64,000 bases of DNA. Origin: Herbiconiux sp. SALV-R1. GTDB lineage: Bacteria; Actinomycetota; Actinomycetes; Actinomycetales; Microbacteriaceae. The DNA lies in contig NZ_CP053344.1 of NCBI RefSeq assembly GCF_013113715.1, positions 2,852,001-2,916,000 on the forward strand. The letters run 5' to 3'. Shown piece after piece: positions 49,462-58,592 of the stretch (the stretch's first letter is position 1; each line of letters starts with the position of its first letter). The notes below the pieces were generated by a model, which was not told where the DNA came from, searched no databases, and was given only the letters and a program-made list of their open reading frames with translations. A program made the translations under genes and the position numbers.

Positions 49462-51966
49462 CTATCCGGCCTCTCGGGCGCGGTCCCGTGTGCGGTCGCG
49501 GTCGCGGTCGCTGCGGTCAGCGCGGTCGGCGCGGTCTCGGCCGGGTGTTCCCGCCGCGCCGTTCGCCTTCAGCCGGGCCATGGTCTGGTTGAACGGCATC
49601 GGGCGCCCGTAGAAGAAGCCCTGGGCGTGCTTCACGCCGATGCCCGCCAAGATGTCCACAGCATCCTGGGTCTCGACCCCCTCGATGATGGTCGAGTAGT
49701 CGAACGCGTCGCCGAAGCCCTGCAGGGCGCGCACGACCTCGCGCTGACGGGTGTCGTCGAGATTGTCGACCAGGGAGCGGTCGATCTTCAGGATGTCCAT
49801 CGGGATGCGCACCAGGGCGCCCACGGAGGAGGCCTCCGAACCGTAGTCGTCGAGGGCGATGAGCATGCCGAGCTCGCGGAAGTGCTCGGCCTGGCGGCGC
49901 AGGTCGTCGTCGATGTCCTTCACGGAGCGCTCGTTGAGCTCGAGGCAGAGCGTGACCTCGGGGTACTTCGGCACGATCTCCTTGAGGAACGCGCCGACGT
50001 GCTCGTCGCGGATCTGCTCCACCTCGAGGTTGATGGTCATCGTCGCGATGCCGGGAACCACCTTGTGGAACTCGCGGGCCGACTTCAGAGAGGCGGCGAT
50101 GACCTGCTTGGTGAGCTGGTCCATGCGGCCGAGGCCCTTGGCCTTCTCGATGAGCGACGAGGTCGAGATGCGGCCGAGCTCGGGATGCGTGTACCGCACC
50201 AGCGACTCGAACGCCCAGATCTCGTCGTCGACCGTGTTCACGATGGGCTGGTAGACGACGTTGAGCACGCCGTCGTCGATGGCCTTCGCCACGATCTCGT
50301 TGATGCGGCTCGAGCGGTGCGGCGAGATGCCGATGCTCGACTCGAACGCCGGGCCGCCCTGCCGGCGCGACTTCTTGATGGCGAGCATCGAGTGGTCGGC
50401 GTCGACCACGATCGACTGCGGGTCGGTCTCCTGGTGGCCGGAGTAGGCGAGGCCCACGCTCACCAGCGGGCGGTACTCGCGCCCGCCGAGGGTGGCGGGG
50501 GCGCCGACGTTGGCCACGATGTGGTCGGCCACCTGCTTCGACTCGGCCAGCGACTGCAGTTTGGTGAGGATGACGACGAACTCGTCGCCGCCCACCCGCG
50601 CCACGAAGTCGTGCGAGCGCACGCTCGCGCGGAGCCGGGTGGCCACCACCGAGAGCACCTCGTCGCCGATGTGGTGCCCCTCGGAGTCGTTGATGCGCTT
50701 GAACTGGTCGAGGTCGATGAAGAGCACCGCGATGCCGGAGGCGTAGGTACGGTCTTCGTTGAGGCGGGCGAGCGAGCGCTGGAAGGCGTTGTAGTTGGGC
50801 AGGCCGGTGAGCGAGTCGCGGTCGACCTGATCGAGCAGCGTGTCGTAGGCGCCGCGCACGCGGGCGGTCTCGGAGGCCATGTGCCCGATGGCGTCGAGGG
50901 CCAGCTCGTCGTCGGCGGTGAACGGGGAGCCGCCGCTCTTGCGGCTCGCGATGAGGTACTCGGGCGGCTGCACGGCGTCTTGCTGGTGCTCCTGCGAGAC
51001 CCCGTCTTCGGCCTCGGAGAACGACTCGGGGTTCAGCTGCGGGTCGGTCGAGTCGATCTCGGAGAACCGCGTGCCGATCTCGTTGCGGCCCGGAGGGGTG
51101 CGGCGGATCTCGAAGTCGGTGGCGTCGATGGCGCGGCGCGCGAAGTCGACCATCGTCTCCTTCGGGTCTTGCTCGGTGCTCCACGGCAGCGCACGGGCCG
51201 CGTCGACCACGCCGCTCAGCCGGCGCTCGCTGCTCCGGGTCTGCCGGCGCTTCGCCGCCCCGTAGAACACCATGGAGACCAACAGCAGCGGGATGGTCTC
51301 GCGGGCGATCTGCAGCTCCTCCTCGGGGCCGTCGACGAGACGGAGCATGCCCGTCGTCGTCACGAAGACGGCGAGCGCCACCAGAGCGCTCAGCCCCAGC
51401 ACCCCGCCGAGGCGCCACAGGCTCAGGCCGCTGAAGCCGAAGGTGCTGTCGACGCTCCAGCGGCCACGCTCGCGCACGAACTCGATGACGAGCACGACGA
51501 GCACGTAGAGCACGACGCCCACGACGATGGCGGCGAGGTCGCTCACACCGAGGCCGATCAGCCAGCGCGACGAGGCGACGAAGGCGATGGCGCCGACCGT
51601 GGCCACGCCCGACCACTGCGCGGAGAGGTACAGCGAGCGCGTGCTGAAGGCGCGGGAGACGAAGTACGCGAGCACCCACATGCCCACGTCGAACACGGGG
51701 TTCGTGCCGGCCGTGCCCACCACGAGCAGGGCACTCGCCACACCGATCGGCGGGAGGCCCGCGGCGCGGCCGATCGGCAGCTGGAAGACGGCGGTGACGC
51801 CGACGCTGAGGAGGAAGACGATGCACGAGATCCAGCTGCGCGGCGGGTCGGCGATGCCCGCCGCGACACCGAAGGCGACAGTCGCCGCGGCGATCGCCAT
51901 GAGCACGAACGACGTCGCCGCCGAGGTGGGCTGACGCTGTCGCTGCTCGAGCCGCACGGATGCCAT
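49462..51966 (-). CDS. membrane GGDEF-EAL protein (c-di-GMP turnover)
   Basis: The 834-residue protein has about eight to nine helices (20-225), a GAF-like region, an intact GGDEF domain (VLFIDLDQFKRIND, FVARVGGDEFVVI) and an EAL domain. In the EAL part YQPIV, INLEVEQ, LCLELNE, LDDY, LKIDRSLV, EGVET and AQGFFYGRP are kept, but the signature is ESL not EAL and loop 6 is DDYGSEASS instead of DDFGTGYSS. Cyclase activity is likely, phosphodiesterase possible. It ends in an RD-rich tail (RDRADRADRSDRDRDRTRDR). TAGGCT lies 6 nt before ATG 51966. Confidence 0.92.
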   Translation of the reverse strand: MASVRLEQRQRQPTSAATSFVLMAIAAATVAFGVAAGIADPPRSWISCIVFLLSVGVTAVFQLPIGRAAGLPPIGVASALLVVGTAGTNPVFDVGMWVLAYFVSRAFSTRSLYLSAQWSGVATVGAIAFVASSRWLIGLGVSDLAAIVVGVVLYVLVVLVIEFVRERGRWSVDSTFGFSGLSLWRLGGVLGLSALVALAVFVTTTGMLRLVDGPEEELQIARETIPLLLVSMVFYGAAKRRQTRSSERRLSGVVDAARALPWSTEQDPKETMVDFARRAIDATDFEIRRTPPGRNEIGTRFSEIDSTDPQLNPESFSEAEDGVSQEHQQDAVQPPEYLIASRKSGGSPFTADDELALDAIGHMASETARVRGAYDTLLDQVDRDSLTGLPNYNAFQRSLARLNEDRTYASGIAVLFIDLDQFKRINDSEGHHIGDEVLSVVATRLRASVRSHDFVARVGGDEFVVILTKLQSLAESKQVADHIVANVGAPATLGGREYRPLVSVGLAYSGHQETDPQSIVVDADHSMLAIKKSRRQGGPAFESSIGISPHRSSRINEIVAKAIDDGVLNVVYQPIVNTVDDEIWAFESLVRYTHPELGRISTSSLIEKAKGLGRMDQLTKQVIAASLKSAREFHKVVPGIATMTINLEVEQIRDEHVGAFLKEIVPKYPEVTLCLELNERSVKDIDDDLRRQAEHFRELGMLIALDDYGSEASSVGALVRIPMDILKIDRSLVDNLDDTRQREVVRALQGFGDAFDYSTIIEGVETQDAVDILAGIGVKHAQGFFYGRPMPFNQTMARLKANGAAGTPGRDRADRADRSDRDRDRTRDRAREAG

Positions 51967-51972
51967 GCGGTG

Positions 51973-51978
51973 AGCCTA
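51973..51978 (-). promoter_or_regulatory. -10 box TAGGCT for GGDEF-EAL gene
   Basis: TAGGCT stands 6 nt before ATG 51966. The 58-bp palindromic repeat copy 1 lies about 33 bp further upstream, where a -35 region or activator site would be. Confidence 0.5.
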
Positions 51979-52010
51979 CCGCCGCGGGCGGGTGGGGGCG
52001 GGTCGGCACG

Positions 52011-52068
52011 GTTCTCCCCGACAAAGTCCGTGATGACTGCGGTCATCACGGACTTTGTGCGGGAGAAC
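52011..52068. repeat. 58-bp palindromic repeat, copy 1
   Basis: Two 27-nt arms around a TGCG loop pair with two mismatches; the core is GACAAAGTCCG and its complement. It lies between the SGNH hydrolase stop and the GGDEF-EAL start and is the most diverged of the four copies. Confidence 0.85.
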
Positions 52069-52119
52069 GTTGGGGGGCGTCGCGCCCGGGTCGGGCTCGG
52101 GTTCTGGGGTGGGCTCGGG

Positions 52120-52866
52120 TCAGAGGCCGAGGCGGGCGAGCTCCTCGTTCATGCGGGTGGCCATCGCGGCGTAGCCGGCGTCGTTGGGGTGGAGGCCGTC
52201 GGCGGCCATCCACTCGGGGTGGCCCTCGATCCAGTGCGAGGCGCCCGCGATGTAGTCGGCGCCGATGGCGTCGGCCTCGTCGTGCACCCAACCGATGATC
52301 TGTTCGACCGAGTCGGGGCGCGCATCCGTGTACCAGAACGGCTCGACGACGACGATGCGGGCCTCGGGCAGCTCGGTGCGCAGCGTGCTGAAGTCGGTGC
52401 GGATGGCCGACCTGATGTCGTCGGCCCGCTGCGGCATCGAGAAGTTGTCGTTGAGCCCCATCGTGATGAAGACGATGTCGGGGTCGGCGGCGATGACCTG
52501 GCTCACCTCGTCGGAGGCGGAGTAGTCGGGCGGGGTGCTGGCGCGGTTGTTCACGAAGCCGAGGCCGTTGACGCTGGGGTTGAACTCGTTCCAGCCGCGC
52601 TCGGCGCTGATGACGCTCGACCAGCGCAGGGCGGGGTCGGATGCGCCGGTTCCGAGAGTGTAGGAGTCGCCGTAGAAGGCGACGACCGGGGCGTTCGGGT
52701 CGAGCGGCGCGGTGGAGGGGCCGCTCTGGGGCCCGGAGCCGGCGGCGGTGCCGGTGTCGGCCCTCAGGGTGGGGGTCGGGGCGATGGCCGCGAAGGCGAT
52801 GGCGACGAGCACCGCCGCGGCCGCCGCCACGGCGACGAGCACGACGAGGATCAGGGGCTTGCGCAC
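52120..52866 (-). CDS. SGNH/GDSL-family hydrolase
   Basis: The 248-residue protein has an N-terminal membrane helix, then block I VVAFYGDSYTLGTG (Ser near residue 67), block III ITMGLNDNFS and block V DGLHPNDAGY (Asp/His). SGNH enzymes hydrolyse esters, often removing or adding acetyl groups on wall or exopolysaccharide sugars. Location outside the membrane next to the GH6 and GGDEF-EAL genes makes a polysaccharide esterase role plausible. The start is GTG 52866; no -10 box or ribosome site is convincing. Confidence 0.87.
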   Translation of the reverse strand: MRKPLILVVLVAVAAAAAVLVAIAFAAIAPTPTLRADTGTAAGSGPQSGPSTAPLDPNAPVVAFYGDSYTLGTGASDPALRWSSVISAERGWNEFNPSVNGLGFVNNRASTPPDYSASDEVSQVIAADPDIVFITMGLNDNFSMPQRADDIRSAIRTDFSTLRTELPEARIVVVEPFWYTDARPDSVEQIIGWVHDEADAIGADYIAGASHWIEGHPEWMAADGLHPNDAGYAAMATRMNEELARLGL

Positions 52867-52904
52867 ATCCGTCGTTCGGAGCCGACGGTGGATGCGGTTT
52901 GTCG

Positions 52905-52962
52905 GTTCTTACGGACAAAGTCCGTCACAACGCGAGTTATGACGGACTTTGTCCGCAAGAAA
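52905..52962. repeat. 58-bp palindromic repeat, copy 2
   Basis: 27-nt arms around GCGA pair with two internal mismatches and one at the end. The core is CGGACAAAGTCCG in the left arm and its complement in the right. It ends 10 bp from the asd stop codon and could act as its terminator. Confidence 0.9.
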
Positions 52963-52972
52963 GTGGCTCGGG

Positions 52973-55480
<2,508 letters not shown>

Positions 55481-55528
55481 GGGCACTCCTGGGGGGGTCG
55501 TTGCACGGGTGGTGGAACCCGACTGTCG

Positions 55529-55534
55529 AGTATA
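55529..55534 (-). promoter_or_regulatory. -10 box TATACT for lysC-asd
   Basis: TATACT on the minus strand, about 49 nt upstream of GTG 55480. No matching -35 hexamer is seen, as is common in actinobacteria. The leader is long enough for the AGGAG ribosome site. Confidence 0.4.
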
Positions 55535-55640
55535 TCGTGCGGGTGTATTCCGGGGGGTGAATGTGGGGTGGGGGTGGGCGTCTTGGCGGGGTCGGGGCGT
55601 TCTCGCAGCATCCGTTTACTCGGGGTTCATGCGGCGGGCT

Positions 55641-55646
55641 TAGCGT
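55641..55646 (+). promoter_or_regulatory. -10 box TAGCGT
   Basis: TAGCGT lies 6 nt before ATG 55653 and supports the small ORF as a real leaderless gene. Confidence 0.45.
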
Positions 55647-55652
55647 CGCCGT

Positions 55653-55859
55653 ATGAGCACCAGCAAGTGGACCGAGCAGGCGCTGCGCGCGCGGCTCCGG
55701 GCCGATGTCGCCGTCACTGCCGCCGGGCGTCACGTGAGCGCGGCGGATGCCGCGCGACGCCTCGAGTACCTCCGCATCGTCGCGGGGGTCGACGCCGGGG
55801 CGATCTCGCCCGACGCCGGGGCAGCGCTGTTCGACGAGATGTCGATCGCCCGCGGGTGA
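55653..55859 (+). CDS. hypothetical 68-residue protein
   Basis: MSTSKWTEQALRARLRADVAV begins a short, Ala/Arg-rich helical protein ending FDEMSIARG. G/C dominates its third positions and it has the standard leaderless -10 box, which together argue for a true gene. It ends 19 bp before repeat copy 3. I know of no homologous family. Confidence 0.55.
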   Translation: MSTSKWTEQALRARLRADVAVTAAGRHVSAADAARRLEYLRIVAGVDAGAISPDAGAALFDEMSIARG

Positions 55860-55878
55860 CGCGGGCCGTCGCGCTCAC

Positions 55879-55936
55879 TTTCTTGCGGACAAAGTCCGTC
55901 TGAACCCACGTTGTGACGGACTTTGTCCGTAAGAAC
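55879..55936. repeat. 58-bp palindromic repeat, copy 3
   Basis: 27-nt arms around CCAC, starting TTTCTTGCGGACAAAGTCCG and ending in the matching complement. It fills the 91-bp gap between convergent genes, so it may terminate both. Confidence 0.9.
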
Positions 55937-55950
55937 GTCGGATGCGCGTG

Positions 55951-57990
55951 CTACTTGGCCTTGTCGTAGCTGTCGACGACGGCGACCGTCACGGGGAACT
56001 GCACCGGCGCATCCCCGAAGATGAGGCGGCCCGCTTCGGCGGCGGCCTCGCGCAGGTGCGTCGAGACCGCGTCGGCGTGCTGCTCGGGGGTGTGGATGAG
56101 CAGCTCGTCGTGGAGAAAGAACGCCAGGTGCGGCCTTGTGGAGAAGACGGATGCGCGGAGCGCGGCTGTGGAGGACTCACCGGCGCCGGCGGCCCGCTCT
56201 GTGGACAGTGACGGGATCGTCCACAGGCGGCGACGCAGGGAGCTGATCCAGCACAGGGCCCACTCCGCGGCCGTGCCCTGCACCACGAAGTTGCGGGTGA
56301 ATCGGCCCCAGCTGCGCGCGGCCGAGCGCGCCCGCGCGCGGGCCGCCTCGGTGGCGCCGTCGGAGGCCGCAGCATCCTGAAGGTCTTGCCACGCGTCGTC
56401 CGGGCGGGGTGAGCTGCGGCCGAGCCGGGTGGTGACGACGTTGCCCGCCTCGCCGGCGCGGGCGGCGTCTTCGACGAACGCGATCGCCGCGGGGTAGGCG
56501 CGCGCCAGCCGTGGGAGCATGCGACCGCTCTCGCCGGTGGTGCCGCCGTACATGGCGCCGAGCATCCCGAGCTTGGCGTGCGCGCGGGTGTCGACGGCGC
56601 CGGAGGCGACGATGCCGTCGTAGAGGTCGCGGCCGAAGCCGGCGGCGGCCATGGCGCGGTCGCCCGAGAGGGCGGTGAGGATGCGCGGCTCGAGCTGGGC
56701 GGCGTCGGCGACGACGAACACGTGGCCGGGGTCGGCGACGACGGCGGAGCGCACGAGCTTCGGGAGCTGAAGCGCTCCCCCGCCCTCCGACGCCCACCGG
56801 CCGGTGACGACGCCGCCGGGGAGATAGGTGGGGTGGAAGCGGTCGTCGACGACCCAGGTGTCGAGCCAGTTCCAGCCGTTCGCGGTCAGGAGCCGGGCGA
56901 GCTTCTTGTACTCGAGCAGCGGGGGGATGGCCGGGTGACGGATGTTCTCGAGCTCCCATTGGCGGGTGCTGGAGACGTCGAGTCCGGCGCGGCGGAGCGA
57001 CTTGACGAGCTCGACCGGGGAATCGGGGTTGGCGGTGGGGTCGCCGAGGGCGTCACGGATGCGCGTCAGCAGCTCCTCGAGCTTGGCCGGGCGGGTGCCG
57101 GGCACGGTGGGGCGGGGGCCGAGCGCGTTCTCGAGCAGGGAGTTGTGGCGGGCCGAGCTCCACGGGAGGCCGGCGTGCTGCATCTCGACGGCGGCGAGGC
57201 TGCCCGCCGACTCCGCGGCCAGGAGCAGCGCGATGCGCGAGGGGTCGGTGGCGGTGGTGGCGGCGCGCCGCTGGCGGCGGAACTCGAGGAGTTCGGGGGG
57301 TGCGGGGCGGCTGGGGTTCTCGGGGGTGCCCGCGAGGGCGGCCGGGGTGCTCTGCGGCACGGGGGCGGCCGGGGTGGCCGCGGGGACGGCGGGCTGCCGG
57401 TGTGCAGCCGACACGGAGCGTGTCTCCTGAGAGCGAAGCGACGGGCCGGATTCGGGTACGAGGGTGAGGTGATCGAAGAGGGTCGGGCCCTGGGAAATGG
57501 CGGGTTCGGGCACGTGGTGGGGTGCACCTGCAGCGGTCGGCATGGTCGCCCACGATTCGCGCGGGGCACGGGCGAGCTCGGATGCCGCCGTCAGGGTGGA
57601 GGCTCGCAGGATCGCATGGCAGAGCCTCAAGTCGACGCACCGTTCGACCCGTACCCCCGCGGCCAGGAGTCGCGGGTACCACGCGGCGGTGTCGTTCCAC
57701 ACCCACCGGGGGTGGGCGGCCTCGAGCAGACGCGCAACCTCGACGAACTCGGCTTCCGTCAGCGGGAGCGGCTCGCCCGTCGCCGGTTCTTGCGGACAAA
57801 GTCCGTTCAAAACGAGGTTTGGACGGACTTTGTCCGTAAGAAATGTGGGAAAGGTGCCAGGTTGTCCGGAGTCGTCGACGGGGTGGAGGGTGACCATGCC
57901 GGGGCTTGGTGCCGACACCACGATGTGGGTGGCGGGTGCAGCATCCGATGGTGGGGTGGCCGCCGGGTGAGGGGCGGCCGGGGTGGGCAT
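55951..57990 (-). CDS. PolA-like exonuclease/DNA polymerase with in-frame repeat insertion
   Basis: The 679-residue protein matches the actinobacterial bifunctional 3'-5' exonuclease/DNA polymerase family (usually near 550-600 residues). The N-terminal exonuclease-like part has HPRWVWNDTAAWYPRLLAAG and VERCVDLRLCHAILR but few acidic catalytic residues. Family A motifs are A (VFVVADAAQLEPRILTAL), B (HAKLGMLGAMYGGTTGE) and C (FFLHDELLIH). Residues 50-68 (FLTDKVRPN...GLCPQE) are coded by palindromic repeat copy 4. An extra Pro/Ala region (about 175-230) also adds length. ATG 57990 lies 2 bp after the recR stop. Role in repair or primer removal is likely, not proven. Confidence 0.87.
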   Translation of the reverse strand: MPTPAAPHPAATPPSDAAPATHIVVSAPSPGMVTLHPVDDSGQPGTFPTFLTDKVRPNLVLNGLCPQEPATGEPLPLTEAEFVEVARLLEAAHPRWVWNDTAAWYPRLLAAGVRVERCVDLRLCHAILRASTLTAASELARAPRESWATMPTAAGAPHHVPEPAISQGPTLFDHLTLVPESGPSLRSQETRSVSAAHRQPAVPAATPAAPVPQSTPAALAGTPENPSRPAPPELLEFRRQRRAATTATDPSRIALLLAAESAGSLAAVEMQHAGLPWSSARHNSLLENALGPRPTVPGTRPAKLEELLTRIRDALGDPTANPDSPVELVKSLRRAGLDVSSTRQWELENIRHPAIPPLLEYKKLARLLTANGWNWLDTWVVDDRFHPTYLPGGVVTGRWASEGGGALQLPKLVRSAVVADPGHVFVVADAAQLEPRILTALSGDRAMAAAGFGRDLYDGIVASGAVDTRAHAKLGMLGAMYGGTTGESGRMLPRLARAYPAAIAFVEDAARAGEAGNVVTTRLGRSSPRPDDAWQDLQDAAASDGATEAARARARSAARSWGRFTRNFVVQGTAAEWALCWISSLRRRLWTIPSLSTERAAGAGESSTAALRASVFSTRPHLAFFLHDELLIHTPEQHADAVSTHLREAAAEAGRLIFGDAPVQFPVTVAVVDSYDKAK
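57786..57843. repeat. 58-bp palindromic repeat, copy 4, inside a coding region
   Basis: 27-nt arms around CGAG. It lies within the PolA-like gene and is read through without a stop on the gene's strand: the arm gives CCGCAAGAA (Pro-Gln-Glu), whereas the opposite strand gives CCGTAAGAA with a stop. It adds about 20 residues in a probable loop near the N-terminus. Confidence 0.9.
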
Positions 57991-57992
57991 GG

Positions 57993-58592
57993 TCAGTTCT
58001 CGACGAGGCGGCGGCCCTCGAATGCGCGGCCGAGGGTGACTTCGTCGGCGTATTCGAGGTCGCCTCCGACGGGGAGGCCGGAGGCGAGGCGGGTCACGCG
58101 GATCTCGAGCGTGGTGAGCAGCCGCGACAGGTACGTGGCGGTCGCCTCACCCTCGAGGTTGGGGTCGGTGGCGATGATGACCTCGGTGACCTCGCCGTCG
58201 GCGAGGCGCTGCATGAGCTCGCGGATGCGGAGGTTGTCGGGGCCGATGCCGTCGATCGGGCTGATGGCGCCGCCGAGCACGTGGTACAGGCCGCGGAATT
58301 CGCGGGTGCGTTCGATGGCGACGACGTCTTTCGCTTCCTCGACCACGCAGATGAGGGCGCGGTTGCGGCGCGGGTCGCGGCAGATGCCGCACGTCTCCTG
58401 CTCGGAGACGTTGCCGCAGATCTGACAGAAGTGCACCTTCTCGCGCACGTCAGTGAGGATCTGCGCGAGGCGGCTCACGTCGAACGACTCGGTCTGCACG
58501 ATGTGGAAGGCGATGCGCTGGGCGGACTTCGGTCCGATTCCGGGGAGGCGGCCGAGTTCGTCGATGAGGTCTTGGACGATTCCTTCGTACAT
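57993..58592 (-). CDS. recR: recombination mediator RecR
   Basis: The 199-residue protein has the HhH segment [18 protein letters not shown], a four-cysteine zinc finger ([19 protein letters not shown]), a Toprim domain ([29 protein letters not shown]) and the C-terminal [15 protein letters not shown]. It loads RecA with RecO/RecF at gaps. It lies between dnaX (116 bp upstream) and the PolA-like gene (2 bp downstream); the insertion of that polymerase and a small ORF separates it from lysC. Confidence 0.97.

Follow-up and report, generated by a model that had tools for sequence, protein, structure and literature searches.

Four long palindromes in the window

The stretch analysed here (the window; 64,000 nucleotides, G000:C1:2852001-2916000) belongs to the 4.5-Mb genome of Herbiconiux sp. 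SALV-R1 (G000) and contains four 58-bp palindromes with the loops TGCG, GCGA, CCAC, and CGAG, as described in the original prediction, which was made from the letters of the window alone. Copy 1 (52011–52068) lies between two minus-strand genes and represents a diverged sub-type (GTTCTCCCCGACAAAGTCCG...GTGCGGGAGAAC). Copy 2 (52905–52962) is located between two genes that we take, from their sequences, to be an SGNH-type gene and asd. Copy 3 (55879–55936) is placed between a small plus-strand open reading frame, the limits of which were set by hand, and the convergent 3′ end of a polymerase gene (55951–57990, minus strand), which encodes a DNA polymerase A family protein of 679 aa (PF00476, E 9.4e-18). 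Copy 4 (57786–57843) lies within the coding region of the latter gene, where its in-frame translation forms part of PTFLTDKVRPNLVLNGLCPQEPA; the predicted distribution over three intergenic places and one coding region was therefore correct. None of the four elements is assigned a strand. In a sister species (G015), the places of copies 2 and 3 are occupied, that of copy 4 holds a strongly divergent copy, and the orthologous gap of copy 1 has no copy. Opposite window positions 52000–52130, G015 carries short tandem repeats with GGCCGAGG and GGTGGCTCGTC in place of copy 1 (L096).

Each arm contains a conserved 13-bp core, CGGACAAAGTCCG. In copy 2, the first core (52912–52924, plus strand) is followed by an 18-nt centre (52925–52942) and by the second core (52943–52955, minus strand), at a centre-to-centre distance of 31 bp; the centre changes rapidly in sequence and is sometimes inverted, and its length is nearly constant throughout the family. 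A scan of the window for the core with at most 1 mismatch returned 8 matches, all within the four elements (0.17 expected; 8 matches were never equalled in 100 shuffles), in agreement with the earlier statement that the rest of the window has no copies. The consensus of a 64-bp alignment of 54 copies (51 from G000 and 3 from G015) is CAC-GTTCTTN-CGGACAAAGTCCG-(18 nt)-CGGACTTTGTCCG-NAAGAAC-GTG, with the element itself measuring 56–58 bp. The span is fixed: 190 of 194 strand matches to a model that tolerates indels cover exactly 64 positions, and the remaining 4 cover 63. The pairing of the two arms covaries (120 two-sided changes in the 54 copies, against a shuffle mean of 63).

The geometry of two 27-nt arms proposed for all four copies stands for the 58-bp palindromes as such, but the arms are imperfect: the predicted RNA folds have two internal mismatches in each of copies 1–3, a 6-nt loop in copy 4, and an unpaired outermost position in copies 2–4. 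Similarly, the fixed core stood, with AAAGTCCG nearly invariant and the most conserved block of the arm, but the small hairpin CGGAC-AAA-GTCCG, through which each element had been proposed to fold alternatively as two side hairpins, is intact in 129 of 194 arms and broken in 65. It is not a constant feature, and selection for the small side hairpins is unsupported.

A lineage-specific family inherited at most of its positions

As had been proposed, the genome and its relatives were searched for further copies. In fetched stretches, 51 copies were read in G000 and 46 in G015; these counts combine the 46 and 43 copies found by a search for pairs of cores with an 18-nt gap and at most 3 mismatches with a further 5 and 3 copies, of more diverged sequence, that were met in the fetched stretches alone. 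The same search found none in the remaining 14 genus genomes, and diverged copies outside the fetched stretches escape counting. A covariance model gave 104 strand matches in G000 and 94 in G015 (approximately 52 and 47 sites) and none in the other 14 genus genomes; the model searches scored up to 150 candidates per genome (40 in the 120-genome family search of a 75-bp model described below). The exact 13-mer occurs 35 times per strand in G000, compared with 0 occurrences of the reversed control, and all of its 70 strand matches there lie within palindromes. Of 398 Microbacteriaceae genomes, 2 have the inner pattern AAAGTCCGT-N16-ACGGACTTT. The copies are clustered, with 17 adjacent pairs at most 3 kb apart against 1.7 expected.

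Candidate identities outside this lineage were rejected. The half-element had no match in viral contigs and copy 2 had none in phage and plasmid records, which leaves no match to indicate a viral, phage, or plasmid origin. A scan of 84,980 species with a 34-bp pattern found 102 stretches, 80 of which were listed; the distant matches listed have one site each at a median GC content of 0.44, the closest among them departs from the 26 core bases at 3 positions, and the centre motif is matched by 3 of these 80 compared with 68 of the 97 true copies. We therefore read the distant matches as chance hairpins and not as an element common to distant bacteria. In Rfam 15, nothing in window positions 51500–58100 exceeded its gathering score (the best hit had 25.8 bits against a cut-off of 83), and identity with a known Rfam RNA was rejected.

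Comparison with G015 revealed that most of the places are old. Flanking sequences anchored 49 of the 51 G000 copies in G015, and for 41 of these 49, at 35 distinct places, the orthologous gap also contains a G015 copy, while for 8 it does not; in the reverse comparison, 43 of 44 anchored G015 copies have a G000 partner and 1 does not. The centres carry the same signal. Orthologous centres differ at 157 positions in total, a value as low as which was obtained in none of 5,000 shuffled pairings, which indicates that the copies at each place share one ancestor. Thus, the copies at most places are inherited by descent, and there was no recent burst; the orthology of positions and centres sits poorly with simple recent transposition. 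Some presence and absence differences are found, but the mobilisation envisaged in the original prediction is unsupported as a mainly recent process. The same prediction held that fixation at the same positions in all relatives would speak against it; such fixation is largely seen in G015 but not in the other 14 genus genomes, in which the family was not found.

Two places in G015 differ in other ways. At G015:C1:2805405-2805855 (L249), three similar copies stand in a row (2805405–2805812) where G000 has one, perhaps through local duplication of the element with its flank. Opposite G000:C1:53748, where G000 has this element, the G015 region (L256) contains two other long palindromes of the GGTCGCACGAAGTGCTCTC...GAGAGCACTTTGCGCGACC type.

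Slowly changing cores and rapidly changing centres

Rates of change were compared at 26 one-to-one sites, after exclusion of 15 of the 41 occupied G000 copies, for which copy numbers were unequal or partners were shared. Between G000 and G015, the two 13-bp cores differ at 30 of 676 bases (4.4%), the outer seven positions at 87 of 364, the 18-nt centre at 157 of 468 (33.5%), and the 20-bp flanks at 530 of 1,040 (51%, an ungapped figure that includes indels). For fourfold codon sites, taken from four stretches of genes in this region, 168 of 890 differ (18.9%; core versus fourfold, Fisher p 5e-19). Across both arms of all 26 pairs, AAAGTCCG differs at only 12 of 416 bases, and in the 18 pairs in which both copies have at most 1 change from the core, there are 7 differences in 468 core bases, with 12 of these pairs identical. 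The low core rate reads as purifying constraint, as unbiased copying from arm to arm would not lower it.

The centres, by contrast with the cores, have changed rapidly (10 of 18 bases differ between copy 3 and its G015 counterpart), and some have been inverted: by a margin of at least 3 differences, 11 sites favour the same orientation in the two species and 5 the inverted one, and the centres at G000 95165 and its partner are identical (0 differences) once flipped. Template switching between inverted repeats, as treated in part of PMC8604942, homogenises the arms and inverts the spacer, and PMC8794818 presents a similar case for RNA hairpins. Such switching can explain the covariation of the arms without selection for structure. 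One identical centre is present at five G000 sites, and no centre is repeated within G015, which suggests some copying inside G000; the five-fold centre occurs once in G015, at the place orthologous to G000 95165.

A proposed role at the DNA level

The predicted RNA folds of the copies are very stable (z −7.8 to −10.1), and the 38 copies between tandem or convergent genes lie at a median of 23 bp from a 3′ gene end; both observations would suit a function at the ends of genes, either as transcription terminators or as RNA hairpins that stabilise mRNA. RNA selection, however, should favour G-U over A-C pairs, and in the sense-strand stems the former are no commoner: G-U 25, A-C 22, and other 78 in 29 tandem or predicted intragenic G000 copies, and 13, 16, and 55 in 17 G015 copies. 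RNA structure is thus not visibly selected, and an RNA function was rejected as the main constraint. In none of the four window copies does a T tract follow the stem, and none of them appeared in a terminator scan. By rough gene calls, with hand-corrected genes used in the window, the 51 G000 copies divide into 12 convergent, 26 tandem, 10 divergent, and 3 inside predicted genes, one of the last (L090) being probably a fused gene call; copies between tandem genes have a mean relative position of 0.44 and are not significantly closer to the 3′ end (P 0.15). The pairing balance, the lack of a T tract, and this spread of gene contexts lead us to prefer a role at the DNA level. Terminators also do not need a common 13-bp sequence. 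We regard the terminator or RNA hairpin explanation as highly improbable.

Copying machinery and insertion signatures

The original prediction had pointed to a repetitive extragenic palindrome (REP)-associated tyrosine transposase (RAYT) gene as the copying machinery to look for. No match to the Y1 transposase family (PF01797) was found in G000 or G015, and the family is lacking in 15 of the 16 genus genomes, these two included; of 14 control genomes given the same search, 5 were positive, including E. coli. The sole Y1 match in the genus (L032, G004:C11:24558-24878) has no long palindrome in its 3.3-kb locus. The tetranucleotide GTAG/CTAC, which would tag a REP, is found in only 7 of 97 copies, and CGTC/GACG is found in 65 of 97, so the element has no GTAG tag and the latter motif is not constant. 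No autonomous partner with the same ends was found, the exact core being confined to the palindromes in G000. None of ten proteins, namely the polymerase and nine encoded beside or between copies, is a transposase by Pfam. One protein of 310 aa (L085:3071-4003; G000:C1, approximately 2734870–2735802) has a weak match, below the cut-off, to the nuclease family PF18741 (REase_MTES_1575); its gene is bracketed on both sides by element copies, both of which have G015 partners.

Other palindromes in the genus

Other species of the genus have palindromes of approximately 40–78 bp with different sequences. Such palindromes take the place of copy 2 in G010, G005, G001, and G009 (4 of 14 genomes) and that of copy 3 in G005, G001, and G002 (3 of 14), both partly by eye. 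A second family of 75 bp (consensus CTCCTCGCGAGCCGTCAAAATTCGCCCT...AGGGCGAATTTTGACGGGTCGCGAGGAG), modelled from eight elements of five genomes, has matches in all 16 genus genomes, with 10 to 103 strand hits each; at E 1e-6, the model matched 20 of 120 genomes of the Microbacteriaceae, from 17 of 85 genera, and some of its weak matches may be unrelated hairpins. The arms of this family vary yet match each other, the centre is often AAAA/TTTT or TCCC/GGGA, and species have their own dialects; examples are L269, L270, L272, and L276 (G000:C1:3477785). A palindrome of the 75-bp family also lies in a region of G004 that matches the polymerase A gene of copy 4 (L211:5528-5599). The family of the window is one dialect among several. 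A more general proposal, which we put forward tentatively and consider unlikely, is that each species of the genus keeps its own dialect of long DNA palindrome, partly at intergenic places shared between species, to be recognised by a putative fast-changing host protein that would copy or maintain the sites. If true, this would be a system for genome maintenance or chromosome organisation in Microbacteriaceae, REPIN-like (REPINs being REP doublets forming hairpins) but independent of a RAYT.

Interpretation and alternatives

We interpret the elements as a lineage-specific, RAYT-less, non-autonomous family of DNA palindromes resembling REPINs (REP doublets forming hairpins), the arms of which are a putative protein recognition site, a reading that we hold and doubt in about equal measure. 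Each element comprises a conserved arm (TTCTTRCGGACAAAGTCCG) and its inverted counterpart, held at a fixed spacing on either side of the 18-nt centre. The arms may serve as a DNA-level recognition site for a trans-acting protein; such recognition would account for the constraint seen locus by locus as well as for the fixed spacing of 31 bp, which by arithmetic corresponds to approximately three helical turns. Polymerase template switching at the hairpin could make the arms match and flip the centre, and rare copying to new or existing sites could seed and homogenise the family.

Several observations weigh against this interpretation. The main gap is that no recognising protein or copying enzyme was found. 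The copies were recognised by their core, so the conservation of the core is flattered, and the apparent constraint could be partly ectopic conversion instead. Moreover, in proteobacteria, according to part of PMC8604942, non-coding regions that contain short inverted repeats are better conserved than the sequence around them; part of the core effect may therefore belong to inverted repeats as such, which weakens the inference of constraint. Of the positions at which the small side hairpin is broken, 56 of 93 break the long stem too. The orthologous gaps reach approximately 1 kb, and only 26 of the 41 occupied ones measure 150 bp or less in G015. Empty sites, which the original prediction regarded as a sign of mobility, are present in that 8 G000 copies and 1 G015 copy lack a partner, but without a clean gap: sites empty in one species have neighbouring indels as well, none of the 8 unmatched G000 sites is a textbook empty site, and the presence and absence differences may be losses. 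Direct repeats in the flanks are weak (mean best 1.21 versus 0.91, with 5 of 200 shuffles as high).

Positions that are mostly common by descent, strong core constraint, and constant spacing would also be expected of fixed sites bound by a protein that organises or maintains the DNA, if the sites spread anciently and are now kept by selection after mobility has gone; local clustering is the one aspect of their chromosomal arrangement that was covered. The copies restricted to one species (8 of 49 anchored in G000 and 1 of 44 in G015) speak against complete fixation, though losses are possible, and the five identical G000 centres point to some copying. We consider this explanation unlikely, though worth keeping in view. 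Somewhat more doubtful is that the copies are remnants of a classical REPIN family, the RAYT of which was lost or is too diverged to be found. Their anatomy fits, with inverted ends and a compensating spacer of variable sequence and fixed length (PMC3116915, in the part concerned), as do the ability of HH dimers of REPs to form a large hairpin, noted in part of PMC3733652, and the clustering of the copies. But Y1 transposases were not found in 15 of 16 genus genomes by a search that recovers them in 5 of the 14 controls, the GTAG tag is rare, and remnants would be expected to lose their core at the neutral rate, which is not observed. REP singlets are decaying remnants of REPINs according to a section of PMC8049555, and they have no counterpart among the exact 13-mers. 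An origin as a miniature inverted-repeat transposable element (MITE), consisting of terminal inverted repeats from an ordinary DDE insertion sequence, would account for the inverted ends and the many copies, and the copy at G000 634429 has a flanking direct repeat of 10 bases (found by eye; the longest repeat found). However, because the exact core never occurs outside palindromes in G000, no longer element has these ends there, and the missing matches in viral, phage, and plasmid records and the overall weakness of direct repeats also disagree with it; we regard a MITE origin as very improbable.

REPINs are explained by RAYT transposases, whereas the present family combines REPIN anatomy with positional inheritance, strong constraint, and no detectable RAYT. 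The two sister genomes offer dozens of locus-by-locus comparisons that separate constraint on the arms, correction by template switching, and inversion of the centre, and they make what else copies or preserves such palindromes a testable question.

Comparison with known systems

The matS/MatP-type sites are dispersed 13-bp palindromic DNA sites of 5+3+5 design. The elements described here share the dispersed 13-bp 5+3+5 sites and differ in that the sites are paired 31 bp apart. Among the open-licence literature matches listed, no description of a palindrome family of Microbacteriaceae or actinobacteria was found, and the match listed for parts of the core concerns PCR detection of respiratory pathogens; PMC12306157, by term search, includes a table part for Actinomycetota and mentions neither RAYT nor Microbacteriaceae. 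Repeats tagged with CGTC, as treated in part of PMC3733652, are similar in that they apparently also have no dedicated transposase, but they have stems of 8–9 bp, a CGTC end, and a 3-bp tail, and the CGTC/GACG motif is not general here. The Rickettsia palindromic elements, named in the same part of PMC3733652, likewise occur within protein genes; their host and sequence are unrelated, and the window has one clear intragenic site.

Closer likenesses are found in REPs and bacterial interspersed mosaic elements (BIMEs), which are intergenic palindrome families with some members within DNA synthesis and repair genes, DNA polymerase I among them (PMC3733652, same part); copy 4, within the polymerase A family gene, is a parallel case. 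Of the REP-, BIME-, or MITE-like behaviour inferred originally, an interspersed family across the genome, found only in the two sister species and with REPIN-like anatomy, is supported, and the presence of a RAYT is not. REPINs have conserved ends, and both the length and the pairing of their spacer are under constraint (Bertels and Rainey 2011, PMC3116915, in the part concerned); they are, like the present elements, short non-autonomous palindromes with many copies per genome, in which two inverted conserved ends at a fixed distance enclose a variable compensating spacer. The present elements differ from the REPINs so described in that (i) no RAYT was found; (ii) there is no GTAG tag; (iii) they are shorter (56–58 bp); and (iv) AAAGTCCG is the most conserved block and the small hairpin of the arm is often broken. 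Given the differences in RAYT, GTAG tag, and constant side hairpin, we do not file the family among the REPINs, although the element works like one.

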